IMG/VR virus record: IMGVR_UViG_3300036861_000632
Coordinates: 1-64,000 of that record
Strand: one strand, 5' to 3'
Length of the DNA stretch: 64,000 nucleotides
From: a virus
The first letter of the stretch is position 1, and each line of letters begins with the position of its first letter. The notes beneath the pieces were generated by a model. It ran no database searches. It saw only the letters and a list, made by a program, of their open reading frames with translations, and had not been told where the DNA came from. Positions 3,915-58,820 of the stretch are shown one piece after another. The position numbers were made by a program, and so were the translations under genes.

Positions 3915-4643
3915 TCACCTTATACCTCTCTGGTTACTCAGAAGCCGGATTTGTTCGCTGTTCAGAGCGTTGTTGTAAATGCGAAGGTCGTCAATGATTC
4001 CCATGAAATGACGGTCTTGGGTTTGAACCCTTTCATCGCCGAGACACACCTTGTTATTGTTGGTATTGACAGCCAAGACGATGGCCTTGTTGGTGCTTGA
4101 GATACCGTTGGTGTAAAGGTAAGCCACTCCGGCATTGTAAATGAAAGCCAGATGAACCCAAGTGTTTGATGGAAGCACCAGAGAATCAACTTCATCATAC
4201 GTGCCACCCGTGTTCATTGCAAAAACAGCCTTGAGAGTTGAACCGTTTCCATCAACCCTGGCCGCCCACCCTTTTTTCCCCCCCGCATTGTCTTCGTTCC
4301 CCAAAATGCCCATCGGGTGATTGAGTGGAGACGTGGGATAAACCCAGACCGCCACACTGAAATTGGTCGAGAAGTTAAAGGCGTTTCCATTCGTCATCAA
4401 ACCGCCCTGATTGGTCCCGTTGAATTGCAGCGCCGATGCAATTTTGCCCGTTTTCCAGGTGGGGGAGTTTGTCAGATTTGCAACGTTCGTTCCTGCATAA
4501 TCTCCAGCCACCGCCCCGCTCCCCTCATTCAGTGTCCACCAGTTGATGAGGTTCGTTCCGTCAACGCGCGCGTCCATGAATCCCATCGGCGCCGCGAAGG
4601 CCGCAAGGCAGCTCAAGATCAAAATGGAAAGGGTGCGCGTCAT
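3915..4643 (-). CDS. Exported LamG/concanavalin-like lectin protein
   Basis: 242 aa. Residues 1-18 are a clean signal peptide (basic MTRT, then ILILSCLAAFAA). The rest follows the LamG/laminin-G-like pattern: 'WWTLNEGSG', 'ALQFNGTN', 'FSVAVWVYP', 'NTWVHLAFIYN', 'LYTNG', 'GIIDDLRIYNNAL'. Such jelly-roll domains bind glycans or form surface adhesins. It is Asn/Thr-rich like many Verrucomicrobiota exported proteins. It is coupled by ATGA to another signal-peptide protein. Its place inside the tail gene cluster suggests a virion-associated or secreted carbohydrate binder acquired from a host. Confidence 0.8.
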   Translation of the reverse strand: MTRTLSILILSCLAAFAAPMGFMDARVDGTNLINWWTLNEGSGAVAGDYAGTNVANLTNSPTWKTGKIASALQFNGTNQGGLMTNGNAFNFSTNFSVAVWVYPTSPLNHPMGILGNEDNAGGKKGWAARVDGNGSTLKAVFAMNTGGTYDEVDSLVLPSNTWVHLAFIYNAGVAYLYTNGISSTNKAIVLAVNTNNNKVCLGDERVQTQDRHFMGIIDDLRIYNNALNSEQIRLLSNQRGIR

Positions 4644-5548
4644 TGGAAATTGAGGACTTCGACCACGGCAACGTTGGTGTTTCCGCGCGGGTCGGCTTTG
4701 AGCGAGAGCACGCTCCAGGCGTTCGCGTTGGTCGTGATGGTGAGTTGCTGCAAGCTGGCAAACTTCCAGAAGTTCGTGTTGTAGGTGACTGACCGTGTGC
4801 CCGTCGTGTCCTGAACGATGTCCAGCATCGCATCCCAGCCCGCCGGCACGTTCGTCGGCTGCACGAGGAAGACGTTGTTCGTGGCGAGAATATAGAACCG
4901 GTTGCCTGTTGCTCCGTTCACCAGATAGTTCGTCGCGCTGGTCGGCGCGAGCGTGGTTTGCAAGAAGTTTACGATCACCGCATTGGTCTGTGCAACCTTG
5001 GCGTCCGCGTTGTTGCTGATCGTCACCGAGTTCGCAATCATGGTCGTCAGCGCCGATACGTTCGTGTTGAACATGTCCAGCCTGACGGCGTGATCGTTGC
5101 TCGATGCGACCGGAGCCGAAAGGAAACCGGAGATCGTCAGGTTCGTTCCCGTGCCGTTGCTCTTGGGAATCTTCCCATCGGCATTGTTGCTGGTTGTTAC
5201 TCCGTTCGCGATGGCCGTCGTGAGCGCCGCCGCGTTCGTGCCAAGCTGATCCATCCGCGCCGCGTGGTCGTTGCTGCTGCCAGCGGGGATGGAATTGAAT
5301 CCAGACACCGTGAGGTTGACCGCCGTAGCATTAGTCGTGTTGAGCTTGAAGCTCGTAGCCGTGGCGAGATCGTTGCTGCCCGCCAGCGTCGTGTAATTGT
5401 TCGTCGCCACTGCACTACCACCAGCGGAAATCTTCACGTCCAGCGCATTGCTGACGCCGTTCACGTAGTCACGAGTTGCGACCACCTTTGAGTCAGCGGC
5501 GAATCCGCGCAGAGCGAGAACCAAGAACAAGATGAGGAATGTTTTCAT
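4640..5548 (-). CDS. Exported repeat protein with signal peptide, tail-fibre neighbour
   Basis: 302 aa from the ATG at 5548, two bases after the upstream stop. Residues 1-18 form a signal peptide (MKTFLILFLVLALRGFAA). The body is Asn/Thr/Ala-rich. It contains two ~55-residue repeats, each with a SGF...SSNDHA.R.D...TN..ALTT.IAN.VT.SNNAD pattern, roughly at residues 75-130 and 132-190. Such repeats resemble beta-helical fibre shafts. The C-terminal ~90 residues look globular ('GNRFYILATNNVFLVQPTNV'). It may form a surface fibre together with the next gene's LamG product, but an exported phage fibre would be unusual. Confidence 0.65.
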   Translation of the reverse strand: MKTFLILFLVLALRGFAADSKVVATRDYVNGVSNALDVKISAGGSAVATNNYTTLAGSNDLATATSFKLNTTNATAVNLTVSGFNSIPAGSSNDHAARMDQLGTNAAALTTAIANGVTTSNNADGKIPKSNGTGTNLTISGFLSAPVASSNDHAVRLDMFNTNVSALTTMIANSVTISNNADAKVAQTNAVIVNFLQTTLAPTSATNYLVNGATGNRFYILATNNVFLVQPTNVPAGWDAMLDIVQDTTGTRSVTYNTNFWKFASLQQLTITTNANAWSVLSLKADPRGNTNVAVVEVLNFQ

Positions 5549-5550
5549 AA

Positions 5551-6807
5551 TCAGGAAGCGGGAATGATGTTCACCCAGCCGGTGTTTGCGATGGTGCCGG
5601 AGCAATTCATCCACACATCGCCGGTAACGGTGTCGCGATACGTCACACCGTCCGCGCGAGTAACGACGCCTTCCGGGGAGCCGGTGCCGCTGGCCGGCAG
5701 ATAGGGCGCGATGGCGTCCGCAACCGCAGCCGCAGCACCAGCTACTTCCGCGCCGATGTCCGCCGCGGCGAGCGCGGTGCCGTTCAAGAAGTAGCCCAAA
5801 GCATCAATCCCGTTATCGCTCATTTGAACCGCTGTGGTATCATTACCTGGATTAAAACTGAGCGTGTTAGCTTGCGACACCAGTTGCCACAATCTGCCCC
5901 CGGCAGTGGCCCGATTGTCCAGCGATAGAACCGCCAGCACGCCATCCGGCGGAACGACGCTGAGTTCCTTCAGATTCGTCAGCGTCTTCCCGTTTCCGTT
6001 TACATCGAATGACCATGTTTGCACGCTGTCCGCCAGCAGCTTCTCGGTCGGGTAGTGCGTGTCGTCCGGCGTGCCTTGGAAGGCCGTGACGCGGTTGGCC
6101 ACATCCTCCGGCGTGAAGCCAAGTGCGGCCTGCTTCGAGTCGGCGTAAGTCTTGACCGCCTTTTGTGTGGCGATGAGCGTGTCACTGTTCGCCGCCAGCG
6201 TCCCGTCGGTGTCAATGTTCTTGCTCGCGGCCGTACCGGCATCGCTGATCGTCGAGAGCGCCTGCGTGCCGGTATGATTCGCGCGCTGAATGGCTGAAGC
6301 CAGCACGGCAGCATCCGCCGCGGCTTGCGCCGTGCTCACCGGCTTGCCCACGTCCGTCGTGTTGTCGCAATTACCCAGTCCCACGTCGGATTTGGTCAAT
6401 GAGAGGTCGGTCTTGAGTTGCGCCGGTGTCCGGTTCGTCCACGCGCCCGCCTTGCGCTGGATCACGTCGTCATTGGATGCTGACAGGGCGGCAATCGCCG
6501 TCAGGTCGGCGTCCACCGGCTGACTCGCCGCCTGCGCCGATGCCGCCGCGCCGGCTGCATCGAAGGCCGAAGTGTTCGCGGTAGCCGCCGTCCCCAATCC
6601 AAGATTCGTCCTCGCCGTGGCGATGTTGTCCAGATCGCTGAGATTATTGGCCGCCAGCAAATCGCCTGAGCCGCCTCCGCCACCAGCAGGAAGATTCTCG
6701 GCAAGGATGTGAGACAGCGTGCCGTTGGCTTTCTCGACCAGCAACACGTCGTCATCCGCCAGCGAGGTGACAGCAGGCGTGAATTGGCTTGGCTTTTTGA
6801 CGTTCAA
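5551..6807 (-). CDS. Tail fibre / receptor-binding protein
   Basis: 418 aa. The N-terminal part has the common fibre head phrase 'LADDDVLLVEKANGTLSHI', a Gly linker, then 'NNLSDLDNIATARTNLGLGTAA', a hallmark of phage tail fibre shafts. 'LTKSDVGLGNCDNTTD..KPVST' follows, with 'ATQKAVKTYADSK', also typical. The C-terminus ('VTRADGVTYRDTVTGDVWMN..GT..NTGW') resembles tip domains. It overlaps the upstream gene by ATGA at 6807. It acts outside the cell as part of the adsorption apparatus. Confidence 0.85.
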   Translation of the reverse strand: MNVKKPSQFTPAVTSLADDDVLLVEKANGTLSHILAENLPAGGGGGSGDLLAANNLSDLDNIATARTNLGLGTAATANTSAFDAAGAAASAQAASQPVDADLTAIAALSASNDDVIQRKAGAWTNRTPAQLKTDLSLTKSDVGLGNCDNTTDVGKPVSTAQAAADAAVLASAIQRANHTGTQALSTISDAGTAASKNIDTDGTLAANSDTLIATQKAVKTYADSKQAALGFTPEDVANRVTAFQGTPDDTHYPTEKLLADSVQTWSFDVNGNGKTLTNLKELSVVPPDGVLAVLSLDNRATAGGRLWQLVSQANTLSFNPGNDTTAVQMSDNGIDALGYFLNGTALAAADIGAEVAGAAAAVADAIAPYLPASGTGSPEGVVTRADGVTYRDTVTGDVWMNCSGTIANTGWVNIIPAS

Positions 6808-13820: not shown

Positions 13821-13954
13821 AAGAACACCGACTCATCTGTCAGCGTCGCTGTCTCCCAGGTGGTGGCTTCTACAAATGGACGCCCCGTAAGCCGCATCCC
13901 GTCGAATGCCCGAATTGCAAATCCCGAAACTGGAACCGCAAGAAAGCCGCCTGA
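13817..13954 (+). CDS. Small zinc-binding protein
   Basis: 45 aa, ATG overlapping the stop of the recombinase remnant (ATGA at 13817-13820). It has Cys at residues 8 and 12 and a CPNC pair near the end ('PVECPNCKSRNWNRK'), so one zinc site is likely. Basic residues suggest nucleic-acid binding. Only two bases separate its stop from the glycosyltransferase ATG, so the two are probably co-translated. Confidence 0.6.
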   Translation: MKEHRLICQRRCLPGGGFYKWTPRKPHPVECPNCKSRNWNRKKAA

Positions 13955-13956
13955 CT

Positions 13957-16317
13957 ATGTTCAAGAACCTCCTCGCGCTGACCCATTCGCCCACGATTGA
14001 AACCGGCATCGGGCGCGTCACGCAGAACCTCTTTTCGCGCTTCAAACCGCACTTCGAGTCCATCGACATTTTCGCCATCAACTACAACGGGATGCCGCAC
14101 GCGATGCAAAAGGAATACACCCTCTATCCTCCGCCCCGTGGTGACGAGTGGGCGAGCCGGGATGGGCTGGGAGCGTTCTGCGACCGGATCAGGGTGGCCT
14201 TCGAGAATGGGCGCGGCTATTCGCACGTCTGGATGTGCGAGGAACCGCGCAGTCTTTCGCAGTGGAACTTTCCACAGACCATCAATCGCGCGGGCAGCCA
14301 TTTCGGATTCGTGACGGCGGGTTACTTCCCCGTGTGCTCGCAGATGGACGACAAGTGGCTGGACATCATCCGGGCGGTCGATTGCCCGGTGGCGTACACG
14401 AACTACGGTCTGACCGAGATGTTGCGCGGCAAGCGGGAACTGCTGTTCAAGGGACGCTCCAAGCCGGCGATCATCCCGCACGGCGTCAACCCGGAGATTT
14501 ATCACCCGGTCAAGCCGGAAGCGAGAATCGCCATGCGCTCGCGTCTCCAACTCGCCGAAAAGGATTTCGTCCTGCTTAACGTCAACCAGAATCAGCGCCG
14601 CAAAGGGCTGGTGAACTCGTTTCAAATCCTCGCCCTGCTCCGTTCAATGAACGTGCCGGCCGTGCTCATCATGCACATGCCGGATGGCAACGAGATTGAG
14701 GGCACGTCCATCAGCGCGATGGCGGATCAGCTTGGCGTCTTGCCGGCATGGTGGCGTTCGTCGGATGATCTTTTCCTCAACGGCCACGCGCGCATGGCGG
14801 AGACTTCGTTGAACCTCGTTTACAACTGCGCCGATCTCGTGCTGTCCACGACCTACGGTGAAGGCTTCGGCCTGAGTTTGATCGAGGGAGTGGCGGCGGG
14901 CTGCTGTGCCGCCATGCCGGACCACACGGCCTGCGCCGAGATTGCCGACGCCATCAACGCTTCACAGCCGGGCCGTGTCCTCAAGCTGCCGGTGTCTGAC
15001 ATCGCCATCGTCAACATGCGGGACGATTCGCGCGTGCGTTATCCGGTGGATGTGAAGGCGTCTGCCTTTGCCATTGCCGACCTGTACGGCAAAGAGAAGT
15101 GGCGCATCCGCGAACCGCTCTCACCCGCCATCCGCAACTGGCTTGATTGGGACCGCATCGCAAAGCAGTGGCTCAAATTTATGGACATTGAGAAGCCCGC
15201 GGTGCCGGAGTCCTACACCATCGAATCGTCGAGGCGGGTGATGATTCCGCACAGCGAATGCGTGGCGCCAACTCCGAGCTTTCAGAGGCAGACACCGTGG
15301 CCGAGTGGATTGGTCCCGCTGCCTGTCACTAAGGACATGGCTTACTTCAATTCGGGGCTGGTGCGCGGGCCGGATGCTCAACTGTGGCTGGTTTCACGGA
15401 AGGCGGTGCGGGTGAACCATCCGAAGCTGCTAGACCATAGTAATCTGGCGGCGATTGCCTTAAACGAGAACATGGAGCCGCGCCACGGATATTCGCTTGC
15501 ACAGCTACTCGCCGGGGACACGCAAGCGGATAGAGTGGATCGGGCAATCGAAAAAATGCTCGACCTTCCAAACCGCGAAACCGAACAGCACGAAGACCCG
15601 CGCGTCGTTTTTCACGCCGGCATGTTCTATGTCGCCTACGCCTCGTGGTCGCGAGAGACATGCATCCCGAACAGCAAGCAGCGCATGGCGGCGTTCAAGG
15701 ATTGGAACAGTCAGCCGATCGTTGGCCGCGAAATATTCTACGGCAACAACGACTCCGCCAATCCGGGCACGGAAAAGAACTGGCTGCCGTTCTTCCATGA
15801 TGGCGTCCTGCATCTGGTCTATCGGTTCGCGCCGCACATCGTCATCGCGCCCTACGCGCAAAACGGCGTCGCGCTGGTCGAATACCGGACGGCCACGAAT
15901 GACACCTGGAAATGGGGCGAGATTCGCGGCGGCACTCCGCCTGTCCGCGTGGGCGACGAATACATTTCGTTCTTCCATTCCTCAACGCCGTGGCGCGGGC
16001 CGTTCCGCCGCTATTACATGGGCGCGTATGCGTTCGCTGCCAAGCCGCCGTTCAACGTCACGCGCATCAGTCCGAAGCCGATCCTCGCCGGGAGCGATGA
16101 GGACTCGCGGTTGTGGGGCAAGAACAAGCCGGCGGTGATCTTCCCGTCCGGGGCGTTGCTTGAGAAGGAGGAGTGGCTGGTGACGGGCGGCTGCAATGAT
16201 GAGGCGACTTTCTGGATTCGGATTCCGCACAAGGAATTGGAGATGCGGGAGTGCTCCACGAACGATGAAGTCAGCCACACGGCTGGCCGAAAACCAGAAA
16301 GTGAAGGAATGAAATGA
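13957..16317 (+). CDS. Fusion: GT4 glycosyltransferase plus GH130-like propeller domain
   Basis: 786 aa from the ATG at 13957. The N-terminal half is a GT-B glycosyltransferase: 'AIIPHGVNPEIYHP', 'LLNVNQNQRRKG', and the GT4 nucleotide-sugar motif 'STTYGEGFGLSLIEGVAAG' around residues 300-318. From about 450 the sequence follows GH130 mannoside phosphorylase/mannosidase blades: 'EDPRVVFHAGMFYVAY', 'NWLPFFHDGVLHLVYRFAPH', 'YISFFHSST', then 'VIFPSGALLEKEEWLVTGG'. One polypeptide would thus join sugar transfer to a mannoside-acting propeller. It probably acts in the cytoplasm on host glycan or polysaccharide. Catalytic competence of the second domain was not established residue by residue. Confidence 0.8.
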   Translation: MFKNLLALTHSPTIETGIGRVTQNLFSRFKPHFESIDIFAINYNGMPHAMQKEYTLYPPPRGDEWASRDGLGAFCDRIRVAFENGRGYSHVWMCEEPRSLSQWNFPQTINRAGSHFGFVTAGYFPVCSQMDDKWLDIIRAVDCPVAYTNYGLTEMLRGKRELLFKGRSKPAIIPHGVNPEIYHPVKPEARIAMRSRLQLAEKDFVLLNVNQNQRRKGLVNSFQILALLRSMNVPAVLIMHMPDGNEIEGTSISAMADQLGVLPAWWRSSDDLFLNGHARMAETSLNLVYNCADLVLSTTYGEGFGLSLIEGVAAGCCAAMPDHTACAEIADAINASQPGRVLKLPVSDIAIVNMRDDSRVRYPVDVKASAFAIADLYGKEKWRIREPLSPAIRNWLDWDRIAKQWLKFMDIEKPAVPESYTIESSRRVMIPHSECVAPTPSFQRQTPWPSGLVPLPVTKDMAYFNSGLVRGPDAQLWLVSRKAVRVNHPKLLDHSNLAAIALNENMEPRHGYSLAQLLAGDTQADRVDRAIEKMLDLPNRETEQHEDPRVVFHAGMFYVAYASWSRETCIPNSKQRMAAFKDWNSQPIVGREIFYGNNDSANPGTEKNWLPFFHDGVLHLVYRFAPHIVIAPYAQNGVALVEYRTATNDTWKWGEIRGGTPPVRVGDEYISFFHSSTPWRGPFRRYYMGAYAFAAKPPFNVTRISPKPILAGSDEDSRLWGKNKPAVIFPSGALLEKEEWLVTGGCNDEATFWIRIPHKELEMRECSTNDEVSHTAGRKPESEGMK

Positions 16318-16529
16318 GCGCAACCGATAACCAGAAACCGTCCGCCGAAGCCCAACGCGAAGCCGTGTTGTGCTGCACTGATTTGTTAGGCTGCCCGAAT
16401 TGCAAAAGCACAAACATCATAAAACTCTGGCGGGCCGAGATCGTCCTGCCCGGTGACAACTCAGACAACTCAACCAAAGGATACCGATATGGATGCCATG
16501 ACTGCGACTCAATCTTCTACGCCCGTTAA
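16314..16529 (+). CDS. Small zinc-ribbon protein
   Basis: 71 aa, coupled to the glycosyltransferase by ATGA at 16314. 'CPNCKS' near residue 27 and 'CHDCDS' near residue 61 form a two-knuckle zinc ribbon. Such small proteins are frequent between phage genes and often bind nucleic acid, but no specific role can be given. Its 3' end overlaps the next gene by 41 bp. Confidence 0.6.
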   Translation: MSATDNQKPSAEAQREAVLCCTDLLGCPNCKSTNIIKLWRAEIVLPGDNSDNSTKGYRYGCHDCDSIFYAR

Positions 16530-16845
16530 GTGGCGCCCCGAACACGGCGGCGCATACCGCTGCCTGCGTGCCAACGAAGAGCATGGCACGAAGAAGGGTA
16601 AAATCTACATCTACGAAACGACCTTCTACCCTCAAGGCGAAATCTGCCACTACAACTCGCGCTGGCAAACGCGACTGCTCGGCGGATGCAACTCGCTTCG
16701 ACAACCCGGCGCGTTCGAGACGGTGACAATCTGCCCGTTCTGCGGCGCGACCATGTATAAACCGGAAGCCGATGCCAGCGGCTTCTTCCCGCTCGCCCAC
16801 GATGCTGCTGAGTGCGCGAAGAAAACCGGAGACTCGTCAGCCTAA
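16489..16845 (+). CDS. Cysteine-containing small phage protein
   Basis: 118 aa from the ATG at 16489, preceded by AAGGAT at a usable distance; an ATG at 16498 is the alternative. Contains 'VKWRPEHGGAYRCLRANEEH', a beta-rich middle ('GKIYIYETTFYPQGEICHYN') and a 'CPFCGA' knuckle near the C-terminus. Function unknown. The stop is immediately followed by a stem-loop. Confidence 0.6.
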   Translation: MDAMTATQSSTPVKWRPEHGGAYRCLRANEEHGTKKGKIYIYETTFYPQGEICHYNSRWQTRLLGGCNSLRQPGAFETVTICPFCGATMYKPEADASGFFPLAHDAAECAKKTGDSSA

Positions 16846-16885: not shown

Positions 16886-17038
16886 ATGACCCACAACCAC
16901 AACACCACGAAGACTAAATATGCACTACAAAGCGACTTAGAAGCGATTTCCTTCGCGCAATTGATGAATGTTGCGCTAAACGAAAACATCCATGTTGACC
17001 ATCTGCCTGACAACCTGCCGGCCCGAACCGAAGTTTGA
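16886..17038 (+). CDS. Possible small protein
   Basis: 50 codons from an ATG at 16886, polar N-terminus (THNHNTTKTK) followed by a helix ('LQSDLEAISFAQLMNVALNE'). It overlaps the next glycosyltransferase by 47 bp. Composition of the helix is protein-like, but the long overlap and lack of motif make it uncertain. Confidence 0.3.
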   Translation: MTHNHNTTKTKYALQSDLEAISFAQLMNVALNENIHVDHLPDNLPARTEV

Positions 17039-17975
17039 TTACTTCTTCGACTCATTGCATCGGGAACTGTGCGGCGATTACAGGGGCGTCACTATTGTCA
17101 TCGTGGATGCGCTCCTGAATCAGCGCCCTCCGAACCTTGCAATCCAGCGGTCGGTTGCTGGCAGTGCGACACTTCACTGTGCAGACCCGAAACCGACGCT
17201 TCACTGGATAGAGCCGAAGCCGAACTTGTGGCAGGGCGTCCATCGCCTCACGAGCCAAGACTACTGGGCGAAGTGCAACGCGCTCAACACGGCGCTCTGC
17301 TACGCTCCCGATGGTTGGTTCACCGTCATGGACGATCTTGGTGTGCTAATTCCCGGCTGGGGCAAGGCGCTCAAACGCGCGATGGTAGATGACAAGATCA
17401 TCACCCTGGGCGCTTACAAGAAGGTGAAGGAATTGGAGATTGAGGACGGGGCGGTGATTTCATTCAAGCCCCACTTGAACGACAGGGGCGAAGATGTTGG
17501 CCGGGATTCCCGCTGGTCGCGCGGAAGTTTTGAAGGTCCAGTACCTGCCGTGGGCGACATGATGTTCGGCCACGTCACCGCGCCAGTTGAAGCCTTCCTC
17601 AAGATCAATGGCTACCCGGAACTCCTGTGCGATTCGCTTGGATTCGAGGATGTCATCACCGGCATCACGCTCGAAAAGGCGGGCTACAAGTTTGTGTACG
17701 ATCGGACGATGCTCGTGTTTGAGAGCGAGGAACTGCATCATCTGGTGCAAGCGGGGAACGTCAAGATGACGACGGTGAAGCGGATCGACAAAGGTTGTAG
17801 CCCCAAGGACAAATCGAACGAGGTTCTTCGCCGCGCTCGCGCTGGCGACTACTCCATCTGGAACAATTACGATTTGCGGGAGTTGAGGCAGGGCATTCTC
17901 AACGGGGGAGAATTTCCTGTGCCGCTTTCCCCTGTCGTAGATTGGTACGACGGGATGGCCTTGAATCAGATGTGA
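16992..17975 (+). CDS. GT2-like glycosyltransferase
   Basis: 327 aa, GT-A-like. It begins with the strand 'MLTICLTTCRPEPKFDYF', has a 'YAPDGWFTVMDDLGVLIPGW' segment where the DxD-type metal site lies (MDD), and a late acidic motif 'GFEDVITGITLEKAGYKFV', typical of the catalytic-base region in GT2/galactosyltransferase-type enzymes. It would transfer a nucleotide-activated sugar in the cytoplasm. Its stop overlaps the following ATG (TGATG at 17973-17977). The specific donor cannot be read from sequence. Confidence 0.75.
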   Translation: MLTICLTTCRPEPKFDYFFDSLHRELCGDYRGVTIVIVDALLNQRPPNLAIQRSVAGSATLHCADPKPTLHWIEPKPNLWQGVHRLTSQDYWAKCNALNTALCYAPDGWFTVMDDLGVLIPGWGKALKRAMVDDKIITLGAYKKVKELEIEDGAVISFKPHLNDRGEDVGRDSRWSRGSFEGPVPAVGDMMFGHVTAPVEAFLKINGYPELLCDSLGFEDVITGITLEKAGYKFVYDRTMLVFESEELHHLVQAGNVKMTTVKRIDKGCSPKDKSNEVLRRARAGDYSIWNNYDLRELRQGILNGGEFPVPLSPVVDWYDGMALNQM

Positions 17976-18700
17976 TGCCCGTCGTAACCGTCAGCCTGCT
18001 TGGTCGTCTGGGGAACAATTTATTTTCCTACGCCTACGCCCGCGCCTACGCCGAACGTCACGGCTTTGAGTTTCAGTGTGACCCGTGGATCGGGCAGAAG
18101 ATTTTCCAGATCAACGATACTCCCGTCCACGAGAAGAATCGGGCTATGGCGCGAAGAACCGAATTGGATGTCCGCGATGGCGAAAGCAACATCGAGTTCC
18201 GCACTTACGCGCAGAGTCAGGCGGCGATGATTTACACGCGGACGCAAGCGCGAGCATGGTTCAGGTTTCGCGAGGAACATCAGTATTTGATGCCACCTCC
18301 AGATGATCTGCTGGCACACCATCGCGTCGGCGACATGCAAGGCTATGGGTACCCACAAATCCGTCGCGCATCATACCTGACCGCCTGCGAGAAGTTCGGT
18401 TTCGACCCCAAGCTTCTTCGGTTTGTAACCGAGGAACATCCAACCGATGTGCCGGGCCTGACGAAGATGGGCCTTGGGTTCCTGCCCGACTTCTACCGGC
18501 TTGCAAACGCCCGAATTCTGTTTCGCGCAAATTCATCGTTCAGCTTTTGGGCATCCATCATCGGGAAGGCTGAGAGAGTGTTCAGCCCGGTCATCCGGGG
18601 ACTCGAAGGCGGACGTGAACATGATGTGAATTTCATTGAAGGATTATGGCCGCGCTTGGCCGATCTCGATGGAGTGACCGACTTACACCTACCAACATGA
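17975..18700 (+). CDS. Fucosyltransferase-like (GT11) enzyme
   Basis: 241 aa from the ATG at 17975. The N-terminus 'LLGRLGNNLFSYAYARAYAE' matches the characteristic GxGNqlFqyAfarala opening of alpha-1,2-fucosyltransferases. 'HHRVGDMQGYGYPQ' could correspond to the HxRrgDy donor motif, with Val for the second Arg and Met for Tyr. The C-terminus 'FSFWASIIG' resembles the SsFSwWaa motif. It should use GDP-fucose or a similar donor. It is coupled to both neighbours. Confidence 0.75.
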   Translation: MPVVTVSLLGRLGNNLFSYAYARAYAERHGFEFQCDPWIGQKIFQINDTPVHEKNRAMARRTELDVRDGESNIEFRTYAQSQAAMIYTRTQARAWFRFREEHQYLMPPPDDLLAHHRVGDMQGYGYPQIRRASYLTACEKFGFDPKLLRFVTEEHPTDVPGLTKMGLGFLPDFYRLANARILFRANSSFSFWASIIGKAERVFSPVIRGLEGGREHDVNFIEGLWPRLADLDGVTDLHLPT

Positions 18701-19281
18701 AACCTTTCGAGGAGCGAATGCGCTACGAGTATAACCTGACGCCCGACAGCGTGGTCATCGACGCGGGCGGGTATGAGGGGAACTTCGCCAAGATGATTGC
18801 TGACAAATACGGATGCAAGGTGTTCGTGTTTGAGCCGGTGTCCCGGTTCGCTGAAATCATCGAGAAGAAGCTGTCCCACTACCAGAATATCGACGTATTC
18901 CGATTTGGCATCGGTGCCGTAACAGGCCCGAAGAAATTTCATGTCCAGAACGATTCGACGGGCGAATTCGCCGGGAGCACTGACACCGAGATCGTCCAGC
19001 TTTTCAGCATAGATGAAATTGATGATGCACTTGGGTTCCCGCTGTTCGAGGATGACGTTTCACTTTTCAAGTTAAACGTGGAAGGGAACGAGTTTTGCAT
19101 TTTGGAGCGCGCCCTAGAAACAGGACTGGTCACTCACTGGCGCAACATCCAAGTCCAATTTCATCCAATCGTCCCTGACTACGAAGCCCGCTATCAACGC
19201 ATCCGCGAAGGCTTGCTCAAGACGCACGAGTTTACGTTTGACGAACCTTGGATCTGGCAGAATTTTGAATTACGCAAATGA
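18697..19281 (+). CDS. FkbM-family methyltransferase
   Basis: 194 aa from the ATG at 18697 (ATGA overlap). The SAM-binding fold is visible: 'VVIDAGGYEGNFAKMIADKYG' (motif I, with GGYEG in place of GANVG), 'VFVFEPVSRFAEII' (acidic end of strand 2), and 'LFKLNVEGNEFCIL', the 'lKiDvEGaE' signature of FkbM proteins with Asn for Asp. FkbM enzymes O-methylate sugars or small molecules, here probably a glycan made by the neighbouring transferases. Confidence 0.85.
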   Translation: MKPFEERMRYEYNLTPDSVVIDAGGYEGNFAKMIADKYGCKVFVFEPVSRFAEIIEKKLSHYQNIDVFRFGIGAVTGPKKFHVQNDSTGEFAGSTDTEIVQLFSIDEIDDALGFPLFEDDVSLFKLNVEGNEFCILERALETGLVTHWRNIQVQFHPIVPDYEARYQRIREGLLKTHEFTFDEPWIWQNFELRK

Positions 19282-19628: not shown

Positions 19629-20312
19629 ATGCACATCGGAAAATACTTCGACCAAATCATTTGCATCAACCGCGTTTCCCGTACTGACAGAAGGCGGCAC
19701 GCCGCGGCTCAGGCGATCCGTTGTGAACTGTTCGACCATGACAACTTTCAGTTCTTCACAGCCCATGATGGCCACATGCTCGACGGCACGTTCAATGGCA
19801 ACTTTGGATGCACCGCCTCTCACCGCGGCGTCCTTGAACTCATCGCGCATCACGGCTGGGAACGGACACTTGTGCTCGAAGACGACTTTGACGTGGTTGA
19901 ACCTGGCCGTTACGCCGACCACGCGAAGAACCGCCTGCCGTTCAACGAGCAATGGGCGAAGATGATCGGCGAAGTGCCGGACGATTGGGAGATGCTCTAT
20001 CTCGGCGGGCATTACGCGGAGGCACCGATTGCGCGGGTGTCCGAGCACGTCATCCGCATTGGCCGGATGCTGACCACGAGCAGCTACGGCATCACCGCGA
20101 AGTTCGCCCGCAAGATTGCGCCTCATATTTCCGGCATCGGCCCCATCGACGTGCTCTACGGCGGGTTCCACCGCGAGAACCGCTGCTACTGCTTCACGCC
20201 GCGCTTGATGGTACAGTATGAAAATCTAAGCGACCTCCAGCATCGCAAAATGGATAACTCTCAATGTATGCTGGACCCGAACCACGAGGCGATGGTGCCG
20301 TTCAGCGACTAA
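19629..20312 (+). CDS. GT25-family glycosyltransferase (LPS type)
   Basis: 227 aa, ATG at 19629 with a strong GGAGGA upstream. The pattern is that of GT25 enzymes acting on lipooligosaccharide: 'IICINRVSRTDRR' at the N-terminus, 'FGCTASHRGVLELI' (the cxxSHxxvl motif), 'TLVLEDDFDVV' (metal-binding EDD), 'LYLGGHY' and 'TSSYGITAKFARKI'. It probably transfers galactose or another hexose to a host surface glycan. It ends the plus-strand island and overlaps the convergent minus-strand gene by 11 bp, with no terminator visible. Confidence 0.88.
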   Translation: MHIGKYFDQIICINRVSRTDRRRHAAAQAIRCELFDHDNFQFFTAHDGHMLDGTFNGNFGCTASHRGVLELIAHHGWERTLVLEDDFDVVEPGRYADHAKNRLPFNEQWAKMIGEVPDDWEMLYLGGHYAEAPIARVSEHVIRIGRMLTTSSYGITAKFARKIAPHISGIGPIDVLYGGFHRENRCYCFTPRLMVQYENLSDLQHRKMDNSQCMLDPNHEAMVPFSD

Positions 20313-20946
20313 AGCCTGCATCGTTTGTATTCATGCGCCCTGTCGCGCCATCCAGTTGCTCCTTCTTTGCGAAGATTTGCAACTTGGGCGTCGGCACCGT
20401 GTAGAGCGACCGCGCTTGCAGGCGAAAGTAACCATCAGGCAGGTTGGTCACATAGACGGGGATCGTGATGATGCCGTTCGTCATGCTGTCCTCCCACTCG
20501 CAGCGGCCAGAACGAGAACCCAAATCATCGGTTGGCGGATAATAAGTGGCGTGCATGTTTGACCGGCCTACTGCGGTTCCGATTATACGGTTGGTCATCT
20601 CCGTTCCCGGCGCGTAGAACAAATCGCCCCGCCATATTTCCGTGTAAGGCTTCCGCAAGTCGGTCGTGAATCCGATGGTGTAAAAGGTGTTTGTCACAGC
20701 ATACCACGAGAGCGTCAGCTTGTTCGTAGCGACCACAGTGACGACCAGTTCGCCCGGCACCATCCGCTTGCCGGCGCGCGAACCAGCCTTGATGGACTCG
20801 ATGACCTTCGGCAGTTGCGGCGTCGCAACGCAGCCGACCAGAATGCCGACGAAGGCGGCGACCAGCCAGTTGCCCACCGCCATTTTGGCGGGAATTTGGA
20901 TTTCAGGTTTGCGGTCGGGCCAAGTAGTTGATGGTGGGCGTTTCAT
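20302..20946 (-). CDS. Exported lipoprotein-like protein, paralogue 1 beside subtilisin
   Basis: 214 aa from the ATG at 20946, which overlaps the protease stop. An internal ATG at 20883 would give a cleaner lipoprotein signal (VAAFVGILVGC). The mature part aligns by eye with the product at 23291-23785: both have GKR...PG, then 'FYTIGFTTDL..PYTEIWRGDL' and 'GRSNMHATYYPPTDDLGS'. The two paralogues flank the subtilisin gene, so they probably act with it at the cell surface. The fold resembles fibronectin/PEP-type domains of Verrucomicrobiota exported proteins, an inference. Confidence 0.7.
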   Translation of the reverse strand: MKRPPSTTWPDRKPEIQIPAKMAVGNWLVAAFVGILVGCVATPQLPKVIESIKAGSRAGKRMVPGELVVTVVATNKLTLSWYAVTNTFYTIGFTTDLRKPYTEIWRGDLFYAPGTEMTNRIIGTAVGRSNMHATYYPPTDDLGSRSGRCEWEDSMTNGIITIPVYVTNLPDGYFRLQARSLYTVPTPKLQIFAKKEQLDGATGRMNTNDAGFSR

Positions 20947-23294
20947 GGTGTGTTGGTGATGATGACTGGAAAAGGGGTGGACATCTCCACGTTCGTCCCC
21001 CGGAACACTTTTGCGAAAATCGTCTGAGACCCGCTGGCATTCGTGCCGGGGTTGAACCGGATGGCATAGGGCGGATTCGAGGCGATACCCAGCAGTGTCG
21101 CATTGCCCAGCCAGAATTCGACGCGCGGCACGGGCGGCAGGGCACTCAGGAATACCAGCGATGCGTCACTCGTGCGCTCTTGGTCGTCGAACACCACGAC
21201 CTCAAAGGCGCTGGTGCCGGGCGTTTCCAGCACGATATTCCTACGGCCTTCCAACATGTCGCTGACGCGCCCTTGGTGAAGCCACGGCTGCACGGCGTAC
21301 GACGTGGGCCGGTTGCTGGGATTCGAGGCCGTCAGATCAAAGGTGACGGTGTGTGGAGCCGGCCCGCGATTCGTGCTCATGGAGAACGCGAGTCGAGGCA
21401 CGTAGGTCGATGGATTGATGCGGATGACCGCCGTGGTCGAGACCCCAAAGTTGCCGGAGCGGTCGAACACGAACGCGCGGCCCGTCGTGGCGTTCGTCAC
21501 CGCCAGCACCGAAACGAAGTAGGGATTCGTGCGGCCGTCCGGCACCTGGTTGAATGTCCACCACGAGTTCGGCCCCACGTCCATCTGGAAAACATACGAG
21601 CACGTCTGCGGGTCGAGCCGGTTGGTATCCACCGAGAGCGTATGTTCAAACCAGCCGGCGGCATTCGTCTGAAAAGTCCAGTGGGTGATGAACTGCGAGA
21701 GGTTGGTCCGGGCTTTCTCATCCCGATACACGAACGCCGTGCGCGCCACCGACGAAATGCCGGCGTGACTGTCGAGCGCGTGGAAGGTGAACCAAGCTTG
21801 GTCATCGTAAGCCCACGGCGCGGCGGTCAGCGTGAAATCGTTGCTGGCGGTGCCCGCGGCGAAGCGATGGCTGCCAAACAGGGCGGAGACGCCCTCTCCA
21901 AAACCTGAAAGATCGAAGCCGCTTTGGAGCCGGTAGGTGATCGCGTCGCCATCCGGGTCGGTGGCGTTCGCGCGCCAGCGCACGGATTGCCCTGCGTTCA
22001 ACACCGCATTCGCACCGTTGACGGTGAGCGTGGGCGGATGGTTCGCGAACGGATGGAGCACTTCGGGATTGTTGACGAGCTTGTTGAGATTCAGCCGGCC
22101 ACCGCTGAAGCACGGCAGGTTGCGCGCATCAAGGCTGGCCTGCGAGAGCAACAACTGCTTCACCTGAAGTGGAGCGAGTGCCGGGTTGAGCGCGAATAGC
22201 AACGCGGCGGCGCCAGTGACGTGTGGCGCAGCCATCGAGGTTCCACTCAGGAACTTGTAGCCGGACGGATCGCACAATGAGCCTGAGCCGGTGCACACGG
22301 TGGAGTAAATCGAAACGCCCGGCGCGGCAAGGTCGGTGCCAAACCAACCGTAATTGCTGAACGTCGCCCGCGCGTCCTGATCGTCGGTCGCCATGACCGA
22401 AATGATCTGGTCCACCGGGATGCTCGCCGGCCAGAATTGGTAAATGTCCAGATCGCCACCGTTGTTGCCCGCCGCGCAGACGATCAACAGGCCGGCGTCC
22501 CCGGCGGCTTGCATCGCGTCGGCCAGCGCCTGATCTGGTCCACCCCCGCCCCACGAACAGTTGATGGCGCGGATGTTCACGCCGGCTTGTTTCAGATCAA
22601 CGGCCTTTTCGATCATCAACATCCCGTCGCTGATCTGCCCGCTGCCCGTTTCGTTGAGGAACTTGAGGTCGATGATCCTGAGTCCACTCCAAGCGAGGCC
22701 GGCCACGCCGACGCCGTTGTTGCCGACCGCGCCGATGATCCCGGAGCAGTGCGAGCCGTGCCCATGCTGGTCGCCGGTCGTGGTTCGGATGAGACCGAAC
22801 TGGGCTTGGTAGCCGTGCTCGCCATTTGTGCCCGTCCACGCAACGGGCGCGAGGTCAGGATGAGTAAAGTCCACGCCGGTATCGCATACGGCGATGATGA
22901 CGTTCGTGGCGTGCGTGAGGCGGTCCCATGCGAGCGGCGCTTCGATCTTCACCGGCCCCCACTGCTGGTTGAACAGCGGATCGTTTGGCACCGCCTGAGT
23001 CGTCACGATGCGGTCCTCTTGAACCGCGTCGAAGAGCGGCGAGTTTAGATAAGCGGCGAGAGCGCGCTTGGCGGCGGCATCATTCGATGGCAGCCGGACG
23101 ACATGCCAGCGGACGTACTTGAACTGGTGAACCTTTTGCGCGCCGTGCTGGCCGTGGAATTTATCCGCGTCGATTTCCGACCCCTTCTTGACCCGCACTA
23201 GGATCGTCGCCCCAGCGGGATTTACGAAGCGTTGATACGGTGCCGCGCCCAGTGACAGCGTGACCGCCAGAAGAATGAGCGCGACCAGATTCAC
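20943..23294 (-). CDS. Secreted subtilisin-like serine protease (S8)
   Basis: 783 aa. Signal peptide at 1-18 (NLVALILLAVTLSLGAA), then a propeptide-like region. The S8 domain has all catalytic elements: Asp138 in 'VCDTGVDFTHPDL', His179 in 'HGHGSHCSG', oxyanion Asn277 in 'AAGNNGG', and Ser353 in 'LSGTSMAAPHVTGAAA'. From ~410 the sequence is beta-sandwich/PKD-like ('HPPTLTVNG...TDPDGD'), with Asn/Thr-rich segments to the end. It should act outside the host cytoplasm. It is coupled by ATGA to a lipoprotein on each side. A phage-borne secreted subtilase is unusual; possible roles are virion-access proteolysis, host surface shaving or late lysis. Confidence 0.92.
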   Translation of the reverse strand: MNLVALILLAVTLSLGAAPYQRFVNPAGATILVRVKKGSEIDADKFHGQHGAQKVHQFKYVRWHVVRLPSNDAAAKRALAAYLNSPLFDAVQEDRIVTTQAVPNDPLFNQQWGPVKIEAPLAWDRLTHATNVIIAVCDTGVDFTHPDLAPVAWTGTNGEHGYQAQFGLIRTTTGDQHGHGSHCSGIIGAVGNNGVGVAGLAWSGLRIIDLKFLNETGSGQISDGMLMIEKAVDLKQAGVNIRAINCSWGGGGPDQALADAMQAAGDAGLLIVCAAGNNGGDLDIYQFWPASIPVDQIISVMATDDQDARATFSNYGWFGTDLAAPGVSIYSTVCTGSGSLCDPSGYKFLSGTSMAAPHVTGAAALLFALNPALAPLQVKQLLLSQASLDARNLPCFSGGRLNLNKLVNNPEVLHPFANHPPTLTVNGANAVLNAGQSVRWRANATDPDGDAITYRLQSGFDLSGFGEGVSALFGSHRFAAGTASNDFTLTAAPWAYDDQAWFTFHALDSHAGISSVARTAFVYRDEKARTNLSQFITHWTFQTNAAGWFEHTLSVDTNRLDPQTCSYVFQMDVGPNSWWTFNQVPDGRTNPYFVSVLAVTNATTGRAFVFDRSGNFGVSTTAVIRINPSTYVPRLAFSMSTNRGPAPHTVTFDLTASNPSNRPTSYAVQPWLHQGRVSDMLEGRRNIVLETPGTSAFEVVVFDDQERTSDASLVFLSALPPVPRVEFWLGNATLLGIASNPPYAIRFNPGTNASGSQTIFAKVFRGTNVEMSTPFPVIITNTP

Positions 23295-35138: not shown

Positions 35139-35378
35139 TCAATGGATTCTGGAAAGCTGGGCACGCCAAGCGTTCGCCATATCCAACAAGGCGTTCACGT
35201 CTTCATCGGAACCCGTGCGTGCCTGCGCCATGTGATAGCCGTGGCGACGTTGGAATTCGGCTCCGGCGATGAGGAGGTTGTGGCGCAGCACCTCGGCCGG
35301 CATCTCGTCAATGGATGCGTAGTGGTTCCCGGTGCGGCAGCATTTCAGCGGGTGAAGATTACATCTGACGTTTTTCAC
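35139..35378 (-). CDS. Small protein, unknown
   Basis: 79 aa from a GTG at 35378 that overlaps the methyltransferase stop (GTGA). Contains 'CNLHPLKCCRTGNHY' near the N-terminus with three Cys and a helical remainder ('DVNALLDMANAWRAQLSRI'). Unknown function. Confidence 0.55.
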   Translation of the reverse strand: MKNVRCNLHPLKCCRTGNHYASIDEMPAEVLRHNLLIAGAEFQRRHGYHMAQARTGSDEDVNALLDMANAWRAQLSRIH

Positions 35379-36124
35379 AGCTTCAGGTATTCGGCATTCA
35401 CGTCATTGAGCCACGCCCGTCGTCCGTTGGCGATGGCTTCACGCCCGGTTGTACCACTGCCCGCGAACGGGTCAGCCACAAGGTCGCCGGGATTCGACCA
35501 CGAAAGTATCAGGTCACGCGCCAGCCATTTCGGCATCATCGCCGGATGCTTCAATTCGACGCACATTTCCTCCTGTCCGCGAGTGTTGCCAAGCCAGACG
35601 TTGTGGCGCATTCCGAACTCAGCGTTGATCTTCTTTGCGCGAACCGATTTGCTGCCATTCCGCTCCGTGAACGTGTTGACTCCAAGGTTGCCGACGCATC
35701 CCGCCGTGAGGTTCTTGCGATCTTTTATGGGGTTGAAAACCCGCGGGGCACCTTTTGACAGGATGAACACATACTCAAAGACTTGGTGATACCGCGTGCG
35801 CTCCGGGTGACTGAAATTCCGCTTCTGATAGATCATCGTGTCATGCACGCGAAAGCCGCATACGTCAGCGAAATAGATTTTCTGGCGGCATGAGGTCAGC
35901 GTTTCTGAACCTTTCACCACCGCGTCGTTCACGTTCCAACAAACTATCCCGCCTTTGCATAGCACACGGTAAAGCTCGCGCGCTGTTCCCTCAAAGTCCC
36001 ATTCGCATCCTGTGTAATCCCGTAAATTGTCGTAGGGAGGAGAAGTACAGACCAGTTGCACGCTGCCTTGCTCAAGCGTTTTCAGGGCCGCCACGGAGTC
36101 TTTGTTCTCAATGATCTTTGTCAC
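35375..36124 (-). CDS. N6-adenine/N4-cytosine DNA methyltransferase (beta class)
   Basis: 249 aa from a GTG at 36124 (GTGA overlap). Motif IV TSPPY (27-31, 'LVCTSPPYDNLRDY') precedes motif I 'DPFAGSGTTGREA' (about 218-230), the permuted order of the beta class. 'WNVNDAVV' and 'ILSKGAPRVF' are typical connecting segments. SPPY is used by both N4-C and N6-A enzymes, so the target base is not decided. It probably protects or marks phage DNA together with the cytosine methyltransferase 1.5 kb downstream. Confidence 0.92.
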   Translation of the reverse strand: MTKIIENKDSVAALKTLEQGSVQLVCTSPPYDNLRDYTGCEWDFEGTARELYRVLCKGGIVCWNVNDAVVKGSETLTSCRQKIYFADVCGFRVHDTMIYQKRNFSHPERTRYHQVFEYVFILSKGAPRVFNPIKDRKNLTAGCVGNLGVNTFTERNGSKSVRAKKINAEFGMRHNVWLGNTRGQEEMCVELKHPAMMPKWLARDLILSWSNPGDLVADPFAGSGTTGREAIANGRRAWLNDVNAEYLKL

Positions 36125-36870
36125 AGCTTCAAAATCCCTTCCATCGGACAAACCTGCGCGGCCACATCACCAAACTGTTTGAGCAGCATCTCGGTCTGTG
36201 ATGGAATCACGGTATCGGGCATGTGTCGCCCGCGAGTCTTACCATAGAGTCGCATGGCCAGACCACACAGAATTATCTCCAGCTTGGCATCGGTCAGTTC
36301 CGAAGTGACCCGGTGGGCATCGGCGATCAACCCCGTCTCATACTGGTCAATGTCGCGCGGTTCCGGCCGCTTGAGGATTTGGTCCACGGTGCGAATAAGC
36401 ACGACGGCGCGGTTCATCTCGCTGGGCGTCATGCGGCTGCCATCGCCCTTTTCCCAGATGGCCGGCGGAAGCTCCTCCACGAGCCGCGCCGTGCCCAGGA
36501 TGATCTTCTTTGGGTTCACCAGCGAGTAGAATTGCTTGCGGTAATCGCCGCGCTCGCGATGGTTGGCGTCGAGTTCAAGGTTCTCCTGCCGGAACCATTT
36601 GCAGAGCCAATAGTCGGGGTCGGGATCGTCCACGAGCAGGCGCGCGGATTGGAGCGCCGTGATTGGAAGATCGGTGTCGGCCTTGAGCCAGCGCGAGAAG
36701 TTCGCCGCCTGATCTTTGAGGAAGCCACCCGCGCGCCCGTGCAACTCGGCCTGATAATCGAGTTGGACCCACAAGCCGATGAAGATGTGCGTGGCCATCG
36801 GCTCATTGCCGATCCGGGCGACGAGGTTTTGGAACGACGGATGGGATTGGAAATCACGAGGGAGATTCAT
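36121..36870 (-). CDS. Unknown phage protein
   Basis: 249 aa from the ATG at 36870, overlapping the upstream gene by 17 bp. Helical, with 'NEPMATHIFIGLWVQLDYQ' and 'WLCKWFRQENLELD' segments. No motif seen. It immediately precedes the DNA methyltransferase, to which it is coupled, so a DNA-related role is possible. Confidence 0.55.
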   Translation of the reverse strand: MNLPRDFQSHPSFQNLVARIGNEPMATHIFIGLWVQLDYQAELHGRAGGFLKDQAANFSRWLKADTDLPITALQSARLLVDDPDPDYWLCKWFRQENLELDANHRERGDYRKQFYSLVNPKKIILGTARLVEELPPAIWEKGDGSRMTPSEMNRAVVLIRTVDQILKRPEPRDIDQYETGLIADAHRVTSELTDAKLEIILCGLAMRLYGKTRGRHMPDTVIPSQTEMLLKQFGDVAAQVCPMEGILKL

Positions 36871-56763: not shown

Positions 56764-57051
56764 TTATGCAGGATGCGTTGCCTCGTGAAAACTCATCGCT
56801 GGAAAATGCGGGGGCAGTCCGCCGATGAAGGACAGGAAGATTGGCTGGCCGGCGGCGATCTGAAGTATCTCCTGCGGGGATGGCTGCCACGCGACCACGA
56901 CGATCTCTTTGCCGTCAACACAACCGCCGCGCACTTGTCCGACATAGGCATGGAGCCTTGAGCACTGCGATTCATCGAGGTCGGCCGGCGGGCCGAAGAC
57001 GGTGTTGGATTCGGGAAATTCGGCGGGGTGCATCAGAATTGGAACAGCCAT
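56764..57051 (-). CDS. Conserved phage protein, unknown
   Basis: 95 aa, overlapping the HerA-like gene's end by 19 bp. 'VVVAWQPSPQEILQIAAGQP' and 'IFLSFIGGLPPHFPAMSFHE' give a small alpha/beta unit seen in other phages (W.P..eel..l..G.pi.L...g.lpPh...t). No function known. Confidence 0.6.
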   Translation of the reverse strand: MAVPILMHPAEFPESNTVFGPPADLDESQCSRLHAYVGQVRGGCVDGKEIVVVAWQPSPQEILQIAAGQPIFLSFIGGLPPHFPAMSFHEATHPA

Positions 57052-58820
57052 TCCGCCGCGCGAACGTGGTCCGGCTGCGGATACGTGATGAGTTCCTTCG
57101 AGCGCAGTGCGCCGCGGGGGTTCGTGTAGCCGGTGGACGAATGGCTGTAGCCGGCCAGTGTCGCCGCTTCTTCGTTGGTCATCGTGTTGGGATGTCCGCT
57201 GGCAATGGCGGCAAGAATCCTCCGCTCCGGGCCGCCAAGCTGGCTCAGGACGAAATCAAGGAGCGAACCGTTGAGTTGGAGCGCCGTGTAATTGCCAAGT
57301 CCTTCCTCGGTCAATTGAACCATGTCGGGTTGCGGGTAGTTCACCAAGCCGAGCGACTTGAGGGCACCGCGCGGGTTGGTGTACCCCGTCGAGGTTGGGC
57401 TGTAGCCCGCCAGCCATGCGACCTGACAGTTCGATGGCGCCGGATGCCCCATCGCGCCCCAGGTGGCGAGTGAATTGAGGATGCGTTGGCCGGGGCCGGT
57501 TATCTCCAAGCCTGTTCCATTGTTACCCTCACGCGGGGGAGCCGGCGGCGCGTCGGCCAAGGGCCGCTCTGCACGCACGGTCCCGGCTCCCCTGATTGCT
57601 GGCGTGTATTTGTTCGCCGCAAGATTCGGAAGCTTGGAGAATTTTCCTTCCAACACGGATTTGATCGCAGTCACTTCCGGTTTCAACTCGTTCGTGATGC
57701 GCGAAAGCGTTTCAAGCTTGGAATAGTGGCCTTCCGCAGCGGCGTAAAGATTCTCAAAAGCAGCAACCAGCTTGGTCAGCCGCTTGCGCTCGGAAGCCGT
57801 GAGCACGGGTTCTTTTACGGTCAGTGTCTTCGTCACCACCTTCTCGCCGCCGGCCGCCTTCTCCAGCTTTGACTTTTCGTGCTTGAGCCGCGCGATCTCC
57901 GCCTTCAACTCGCGCGGGTCGTTCGCCTTCGCTTCTTCAATGACCGTGGCCAGCTTTTTACGCACCTCATCGAGATCGACCGCAGACCAACCACTGTCGC
58001 TGACTTTGCGCTGAAGTTGTGGCGGAGCGAACGAATCGAACGTGGTGAACATCGGAAAAATCAACCGCTTCGGCCCGAATCCGATTTCCGGGGACCAGAC
58101 GTAAGCCTCGCCACGCGCCATGCCCGCAAGCGAATTCAAGACTTCTTTGCCCTTGCTGATGTCGCCGCACCCCTCGATCCAGTCCTGAACGGCATCACGA
58201 TCCGCCTTGTGGATCACGCGCATCGCCACAAGTGTTTCACATTGCGTCAAGACATCATTGTGAAGTTTCTGCGGGCGTTGTGTTGCCAGCAAACAGATCA
58301 ACCCAAGCCCGCGCCCCTCGCCAAGCAGGGTGTTCGACCAATGCAGGCACATGCCAGCTTCCGGGCTTAGAATTTTCCCCTTGGGCGCGAAATTGTGAAA
58401 CTCGTCTCCGACAAGATACAATTCGCCGAGCGTTTTGGCGGCGTAAATCCCCTGTGCAAAATCAATCCAGAACCGCGTGCGGTTGCCGACCGTCCAGCCA
58501 CGGAAACCGATTATGCAGGGCCGGTTGCCGGTCACGATCAGTTCCGCAACGAGCTTGCCGGATTGCGCGTTGATGGGAATGTCCGTCGCCTTTGATTCCT
58601 TGAAGTCACCAAAGGCAATCACGTCGAACCCGACCGATTTGCCATCAGCGGATTTTTTCAAACCCCACCAGTCGCCCTTGGGATCTATGATGCAGACGCG
58701 CTTCTTATGGCTCAACAGGTGTTCGACGATGTGGCGCAACGCGGAGGATTTCCCGGCGCCGGTTTTCCCAAGCACGGCGACGTGCTGCTTTAGGGTTTCT
58801 TCGGGGATGCAGAGGGGCAT
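57033..58820 (-). CDS. HerA/VirD4-like ATPase with tandem winged-helix repeats
   Basis: 595 aa. The P-loop GKTGAGKSS (18-26) with 'RVCIIDPKGDWWG' and Walker B 'ELYLVGDEFHNF' (about 133-144), then 'LATQRPQKLHNDVLTQ' (about 190-205), follow the HerA/DUF87 plan, but the N-terminal HAS barrel is missing. A coiled coil covers ~290-330. The C-terminus carries two related units at ~471-507 and ~556-592 sharing 'AGYS..STGYTNPRGAL' and 'NYPQPD/TYPQPD', winged-helix-like. HerA ATPases pump DNA with a nuclease or sit at repair complexes. The gene precedes the family X polymerase's partner and starts 2 nt after the previous stop. Confidence 0.85.
   Translation of the reverse strand: MPLCIPEETLKQHVAVLGKTGAGKSSALRHIVEHLLSHKKRVCIIDPKGDWWGLKKSADGKSVGFDVIAFGDFKESKATDIPINAQSGKLVAELIVTGNRPCIIGFRGWTVGNRTRFWIDFAQGIYAAKTLGELYLVGDEFHNFAPKGKILSPEAGMCLHWSNTLLGEGRGLGLICLLATQRPQKLHNDVLTQCETLVAMRVIHKADRDAVQDWIEGCGDISKGKEVLNSLAGMARGEAYVWSPEIGFGPKRLIFPMFTTFDSFAPPQLQRKVSDSGWSAVDLDEVRKKLATVIEEAKANDPRELKAEIARLKHEKSKLEKAAGGEKVVTKTLTVKEPVLTASERKRLTKLVAAFENLYAAAEGHYSKLETLSRITNELKPEVTAIKSVLEGKFSKLPNLAANKYTPAIRGAGTVRAERPLADAPPAPPREGNNGTGLEITGPGQRILNSLATWGAMGHPAPSNCQVAWLAGYSPTSTGYTNPRGALKSLGLVNYPQPDMVQLTEEGLGNYTALQLNGSLLDFVLSQLGGPERRILAAIASGHPNTMTNEEAATLAGYSHSSTGYTNPRGALRSKELITYPQPDHVRAAEWLFQF

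Follow-up and report, generated by a model that had tools for sequence, protein, structure and literature searches.

A phage protein joining a GT4-type glycosyltransferase to a GH130-like domain within a candidate glycan-assembly cassette

A single phage protein carries a GT4-type glycosyltransferase and a GH130-like domain, and it exemplifies a broader pattern in which GH130-like domains are joined to various glycan enzymes. It is encoded in the window, the whole 64,000-nucleotide stretch analyzed here (positions 1 to 64,000 of IMG/VR record IMGVR_UViG_3300036861_000632), which lies inside a virus record of 93,586 bases. Our preferred reading, to which we assign a probability of roughly 0.5, is that of a bifunctional glycan-assembly enzyme belonging to a phage glycosylation cassette and acting on virion or host-surface glycans.

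One reading frame, two domains

The open reading frame containing both halves spans positions 13906-16317 (+). Translation likely starts at the ATG at 13957, yielding a protein of 786 amino acids (MFKNLLALTHSPTIETGIGRV; 13957-16317, +) that consists of the GT4 half, a linker of ~20 residues (15214-15275, +), lying between the end of GT4 homology and residue ~440, where GH130-like homology begins, and the GH130-like half. Third-position GC content stays between 0.72 and 0.84 along the whole frame (0.75 at the junction), and both alternative frames contain stops at the junction; a single reading frame therefore runs through both halves. Since the GT4-GH130 pairing was found on one contig only, namely, the window, and the full-length protein matched nothing when used as a query against viral contigs, one might suspect that an assembly or sequencing artifact had joined two adjacent genes. 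However, the uniform composition, the one open frame across the junction and the existence of comparable fusions, involving different enzymes, on several contigs of other phages make such an artifact barely credible. Together with Pfam, PHROG and PDB-profile matches, the intact frame bears out the sequence-only reading in its central point, a GT4 plus GH130-like fusion within one phage protein. Inspection by eye showed no evident N-terminal signal peptide, and the protein is therefore probably cytoplasmic.

The GT4 half (residues 1 to ~419; 13957-15213, +) belongs to the GT-B glycosyltransferases, as indicated by a match to PHROG_2170 (glycosyltransferase; residues 6-407, 9.9e-20) and by a full-length match of a four-sequence GT4 profile to the viral GT4 enzyme B736L (3OY2; 6.2e-34). 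Identity to the glycosyltransferase of Tetrasphaera phage TJE1 amounts to 28%. The Pfam model Glycos_transf_1 scored 21.7 bits, under its cut-off of 26.4, and 28 bits once neighboring stretches were added. Both active-site elements of the family are present: the string GEGFGLSLIEG, earlier proposed as a GT4 motif, indeed corresponds to the EX7E element (E302 and E310, in GEGFGLSLIE; 14860-14886, +) in our alignments and in B736L, while the Arg-Lys pair (R215-K216; 14599-14604, +) is invariant in the four-sequence alignment and kept in B736L. The similarity of the N-terminal half to chlorovirus B736L (3OY2/3OY7), the TJE1 enzyme and the PHROG_2170 proteins covers their full length, but in those proteins nothing follows the GT4 domain, whereas the window protein continues. 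Among 80 phage loci retrieved with the GT4 half, none contained a GH130-like gene within 4 kb, nor was a second GT4-GH130 fusion found.

What follows the linker is a GH130-like domain (residues ~440-761; 15276-16239, +). Pfam model PF04041 (Glyco_hydro_130) matches residues 540-759 with an E value of 8.5e-9 and 35.2 bits, well above the curated cut-off of 26, confirming the GH130 relationship that had been read from the letters, and phage homologues share 31-43% identity with this half. Because a phmmer search of the PDB with the GH130-like half alone returned no match, profiles were needed to reach solved structures; an 18-sequence profile then matched the GH130 enzymes Lin0857 (6.4e-14), Teth514_1789 (2.4e-12) and Uhgb_MS (1.8e-11), with no GT108 chain among its PDB matches at E≤0.01. 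From these relatives, we infer a five-bladed beta-propeller fold.

Recurrent fusions and the glycosylation cassette

GH130-like domains were found joined to several other kinds of enzyme. First, an N-terminal family with the motif WWExDxxP is fused to the domain at six loci representing four nonredundant types (L086, L089/L090, L091/L093 and L097). This family matched neither Pfam nor PHROG, and its profile found no match in the PDB; judging by its motif only, it is probably a GT-A enzyme. Second, L312 and L332 carry a C-terminal Methyltransf_24 domain and, third, L301 and L309 carry an N-terminal domain of ~490 residues without a Pfam match, for which a GT9-like assignment made by eye was unsupported by Pfam or PHROG. 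In bacteria, fusions to GT2 plus TPR (L246, 2109-4259; L251, 2541-4664) and to polysaccharide pyruvyl transferase (L276, 2736-4595; L277, 3786-5717) were observed. The nearest neighbor of the window protein in the tree is L086 (SH-aLRT 91), in which the WWExDxxP domain takes the place of the GT4 domain, and the N-terminal enzymes have thus been exchanged.

Scanning viral contigs with the conserved GH130-like stretch yielded 131 relatives, of which 80 were kept, and nearly all of these are stand-alone genes of ~450-490 codons from stop to stop; a second scan, with an alignment, added more-divergent members. Against cultivated phages, the GH130-like half gave no match at E≤1 and the homologues L022 and L087 gave at most one weak match, to a fecal phage, so that, in that collection of 50,697 phage records and at that search sensitivity, the family is almost absent and has evidently been missed by phage isolation. 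It is a widespread and uncharacterized family of uncultivated phages, usually present as a stand-alone gene in glycosylation cassettes, and a literature search for viral GH130 proteins found nothing relevant. Strong purifying selection acts on the stand-alone phage homologues (median dN/dS of 0.054, range 0.013-0.095, among homologues of equal length, with synonymous sites near saturation at a median dS of 1.08).

Outside viruses, plasmid matches at E values below 1 were confined to the GT4 half, the GH130-like half matching at E≥1 only, while bacterial and archaeal genomes, scanned once, yielded 46 loci, nearly all from metagenome-assembled genomes (MAGs) of Chlamydiae, Verrucomicrobia, Dependentiae and an Acidobacteria bacterium. 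With canonical GH130 enzymes as the outgroup, phage and bacterial members separate in the tree, with moderate support at the deepest forks and with the caution of a long branch leading to the bacterial GT2-fused group; on these sequences, the sister group of the phage family is placed in the Chlamydiae and Verrucomicrobia. Among the bacterial loci (L244-L288), tandem GH130-like genes occur in environmental Chlamydiae, Verrucomicrobia and Dependentiae MAGs, and several of the encoded proteins have, by eye, signal-peptide-like N termini and are possibly secreted or periplasmic glycan enzymes. One locus, L249, has a GH130-like gene spread over two frames by a frameshift (4212-5599) in a MAG named Bordetella parapertussis, a bin that is probably misnamed or mixed, or else phage.

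In the window, the fusion gene is accompanied by a partner gene (16992-17975, +), which encodes a GT-A/GT2-like protein of a family with the motif DD(L/I)S (DDLG here). Its best solved relative is the glycosyltransferase domain of chondroitin synthase (0.0014), which gives a weak lead toward a GT-A fold. Homologues of the partner, at 26-47% identity, adjoin GH130-like genes in otherwise unrelated phages. An independent scan for the partner yielded 44 loci, reduced to 32 nonredundant types; 27 of these 32 had a GH130-like gene within ~6 kb, in 26 cases on the partner's own strand, and four others had one at another place in their record, giving 31/32 in total, counts from which near-copies were removed at 80% identity and which carry no full phylogenetic correction. 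Conversely, in 14 of 16 records with a GH130-like locus but no nearby partner, the partner was absent from the whole record. The linkage is near-obligate from the side of the partner, in contrast to the loci retrieved with the GT4 half, where the count within 4 kb was 0 of 80. Other neighbors of the stand-alone GH130-like genes belong to GT2, GT25 and Methyltransf_24.

Downstream of the partner, the cassette continues with a protein weakly assigned as GT11-like, i.e., fucosyltransferase-like (17966-18700, +; PHROG_2644 glycosyltransferase at 4e-4 over residues 12-37 only, with GT11 judged by eye), an FkbM-family methyltransferase (18646-19281, +; TIGR01444 at 3.4e-13 and PF05050, both over cut-off) and a GT25-family glycosyltransferase (19629-20312, +; PF01755 at 1.2e-6, over cut-off, and PHROG_2835 at 7e-8). 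A 130-residue cassette protein (16453-16845, +) has no family match and contains a zinc-binding-like motif, CPFCGATMY. None of the cassette genes points to an acceptor. When other window open reading frames of at least 120 codons were compared with the fetched loci at E≤1e-4, only the partner gene, a 263-residue gene (DNA methyltransferase-like, judging by its L092 homologue) and frames lying antisense to these genes or overlapping them were matched; since the other frames found no counterpart, it is the cassette, rather than the phage backbone, that these phages have in common. Most structural genes of the window are without a PHROG match, which places this phage far from known ones, and a terminase-large-subunit-like match was found at 57033-58820 (-; phrog_2666, 2.1e-22). 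Elsewhere in the window lie a gene for a 783-residue subtilisin-like serine protease (20943-23294, -; mycosin and PrtP models match below their cut-offs) and a gene (35375-36151, -) that is 79% identical to one of L092, the homologue there scoring as a DNA methyltransferase. L092 is itself a phage contig with a GH130-like gene, and the partner gene is located elsewhere in the same record.

Active site and candidate reactions of the GH130-like half

Residues were mapped onto the PDB sequences of Teth514_1788, Teth514_1789 and Lin0857, with roles taken from PMC4599007 and PMC4264767, and conservation was counted over 95 nonredundant homologues (27 phage and 68 bacterial). The catalytic Asp, D547, lies in the E/Y-D-P-R motif ('EDPR' here; E546-D547, 15592-15597, +) and is present in 95/95 homologues, with E546 in 27/27 phage members. 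The fusion proposal had been left exposed to a second half devoid of this Asp, an objection that an invariant D547 removes. The -1 mannose site is intact as well, with N465 (15349-15351, +; Teth514_1789 Asn28 and BT3780 Asn74; 95/95) and D748 (16198-16200, +; Teth514_1789 Asp287 and BT3780 Asp363), as is the +1 subsite Arg, R481 (15397-15399, +; BT3780 Arg89). K607 (15775-15777, +; 94/95) lines up with the Lys of 'NKD' in beta-1,2-mannoside phosphorylases and may act either as a beta-1,2 determinant, as does BT3780 Lys199, or in phosphate binding. All of these positions, along with R549, H674 and Y686, are kept in 27/27 phage homologues.

The nucleophile side of the pocket is different. Where phosphorylases have the His of their 'HR' motif, the protein has Y622 (15820-15822, +), a Tyr shared by 26/27 phage and 66/68 bacterial homologues. 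Further on (15919-15927, +), E655 replaces a Lys or Arg of the aligned phosphorylases and R657 replaces a Gly. The E655 column is variable, with Glu in 12 of 27 phage homologues, including the window, and His, Pro, Val, Gln, Arg or others in the rest, while R657 is kept in 25/27 phage and 63/68 bacterial homologues. Going by the UhgbMP and BfMGP structures, we take the 'HR' His and the Lys/Arg columns to be phosphate binding.

Given this pocket, an inverting beta-mannosidase of the GH130_NC type, with which the protein would add one sugar and trim a mannoside in a form of editing, is the best placed of the alternatives but still unlikely. The catalytic Asp and the -1 site are intact, and the phage family shares with the beta-1,2-mannosidases BT3780 and BACOVA_03624 a Glu beside the catalytic Asp, the loss of the phosphate His and common catalytic residues (PMC4599007). 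In these hydrolases, the base is a pair of glutamates (E227 and E268 in BT3780), and in BT3780 activity was abolished entirely only with both replaced (PMC4599007). Y622 falls near one of the two and E655 near the other, Glu268, the places being estimated from spacing in the alignment with phosphorylases; the position of E655 makes hydrolysis by the window member possible. On the other hand, with Glu in under half of the phage homologues at one place and Tyr at the other, the base pair seems not to be conserved family-wide, the phage genes are not in a PUL context, and both fusions and neighbors are biosynthetic.

A mannoside phosphorylase, coupling transfer to reversible phosphorolysis as the sequence-only reading had offered, seems improbable. 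In its favor, the PDB entries that the profile ranks best are phosphorylases of beta-1,2-mannobiose and of oligomannan, together with a mannoside synthase; K607 is retained, and GH130 phosphorylases are able to work in synthesis with mannose 1-phosphate (PMC4264767). However, GH130 phosphorylases bind phosphate through three basic residues (PMC4599007). In the phage family, the 'HR' His has become Tyr and the next column, Glu655 in the window, is not basic; phosphorolysis was consequently not upheld. Improbable, too, is a noncatalytic propeller that binds glycans and holds the acceptor for fused or adjacent transferases. The nonconserved nucleophile side and the many different fused enzymes are what one would expect of a binding module, but it is hard to reconcile with a catalytic Asp and an N465 that are invariant across phages and several bacterial phyla and with a nearly invariant K607.

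The preferred reading remains glycan assembly, and we tentatively rank the candidate reactions of the GH130-like half as transfer over hydrolysis over phosphorolysis. Assembly fits better than degradation because the cassette is glycan building and the family occurs in fusions with enzymes of several kinds that build glycans. The earlier suggestion that one protein both makes and breaks mannosides to remodel host glycans found no backing.

Proposed pathway and its place among known systems

In the assembly model, the GT4 half would take a sugar from a nucleotide-sugar and attach it to an acceptor. The GH130-like half would then work on this growing glycan, at a linkage of the beta-mannoside type and most likely in the synthetic direction, by adding a residue or passing one on. 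The cassette enzymes (the partner GT-A-like protein, the GT11-like protein, the FkbM methyltransferase and the GT25 protein) would extend and cap the glycan, and the finished product would decorate either the virion or, inside the cell, a precursor of the host surface glycan. That the sugar may be mannose is read from the conserved -1 site only; the reaction direction, the identity of the acceptor and the targeting of the virion are likewise conjectural. Decoration of the virion is suggested by the cassette together with known phage capsid glycosylation, such as that of mycobacteriophage cluster F1, where a glycan on the capsid protein is reported for Che8 and Rita (cited in PMC11256854). The window resembles such cassettes in grouping several glycosyltransferase genes in a phage genome, but the phage glycosylation cassettes in the literature that we found are described with no GH130-like component.

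Compared with the beta-1,2-mannoside phosphorylases Teth514_1788, Teth514_1789 and Lin0857 and the mannoside synthase Uhgb_MS, to which its domain is homologous by profile (1.9e-11 to 6e-14), the window protein keeps the -1 Asn/Asp/Asp, the Glu beside the catalytic Asp, the +1 Arg and the 'NKD' Lys. The phage family is unlike these phosphorylases in its altered phosphate-side columns and the new conserved Arg, R657, and in being phage encoded and fused to or adjoining glycan-building enzymes. A model for a synthetic role is provided by the dual glycosyltransferase-phosphorylases of GT108 (the MTPs of Leishmania), in which a GH130-like propeller acts as a transferase (PMC8950772).

More tentatively, we consider it possible that a clade of GH130-related propellers, common to phages and Chlamydiae-like bacteria, consists of glycan-building transferases, which would form an exchangeable module for enzymes of the GT4, GT-A, GT2, methyltransferase and pyruvyltransferase kinds and act with an obligate partner transferase; if true, this would amount to a propeller-fold glycosyltransferase class in viruses. 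GH130 enzymes are known mainly from bacterial mannan breakdown. The combination, in a large phage clade, of an intact mannose site, an altered nucleophile pocket and repeated fusions to enzymes of glycan building suggests a use of the GH130 fold by viruses for making glycans instead, which offers a testable route to new mannoside-synthesizing enzymes and to the ways in which uncultivated phages coat themselves or alter the glycans of their hosts.
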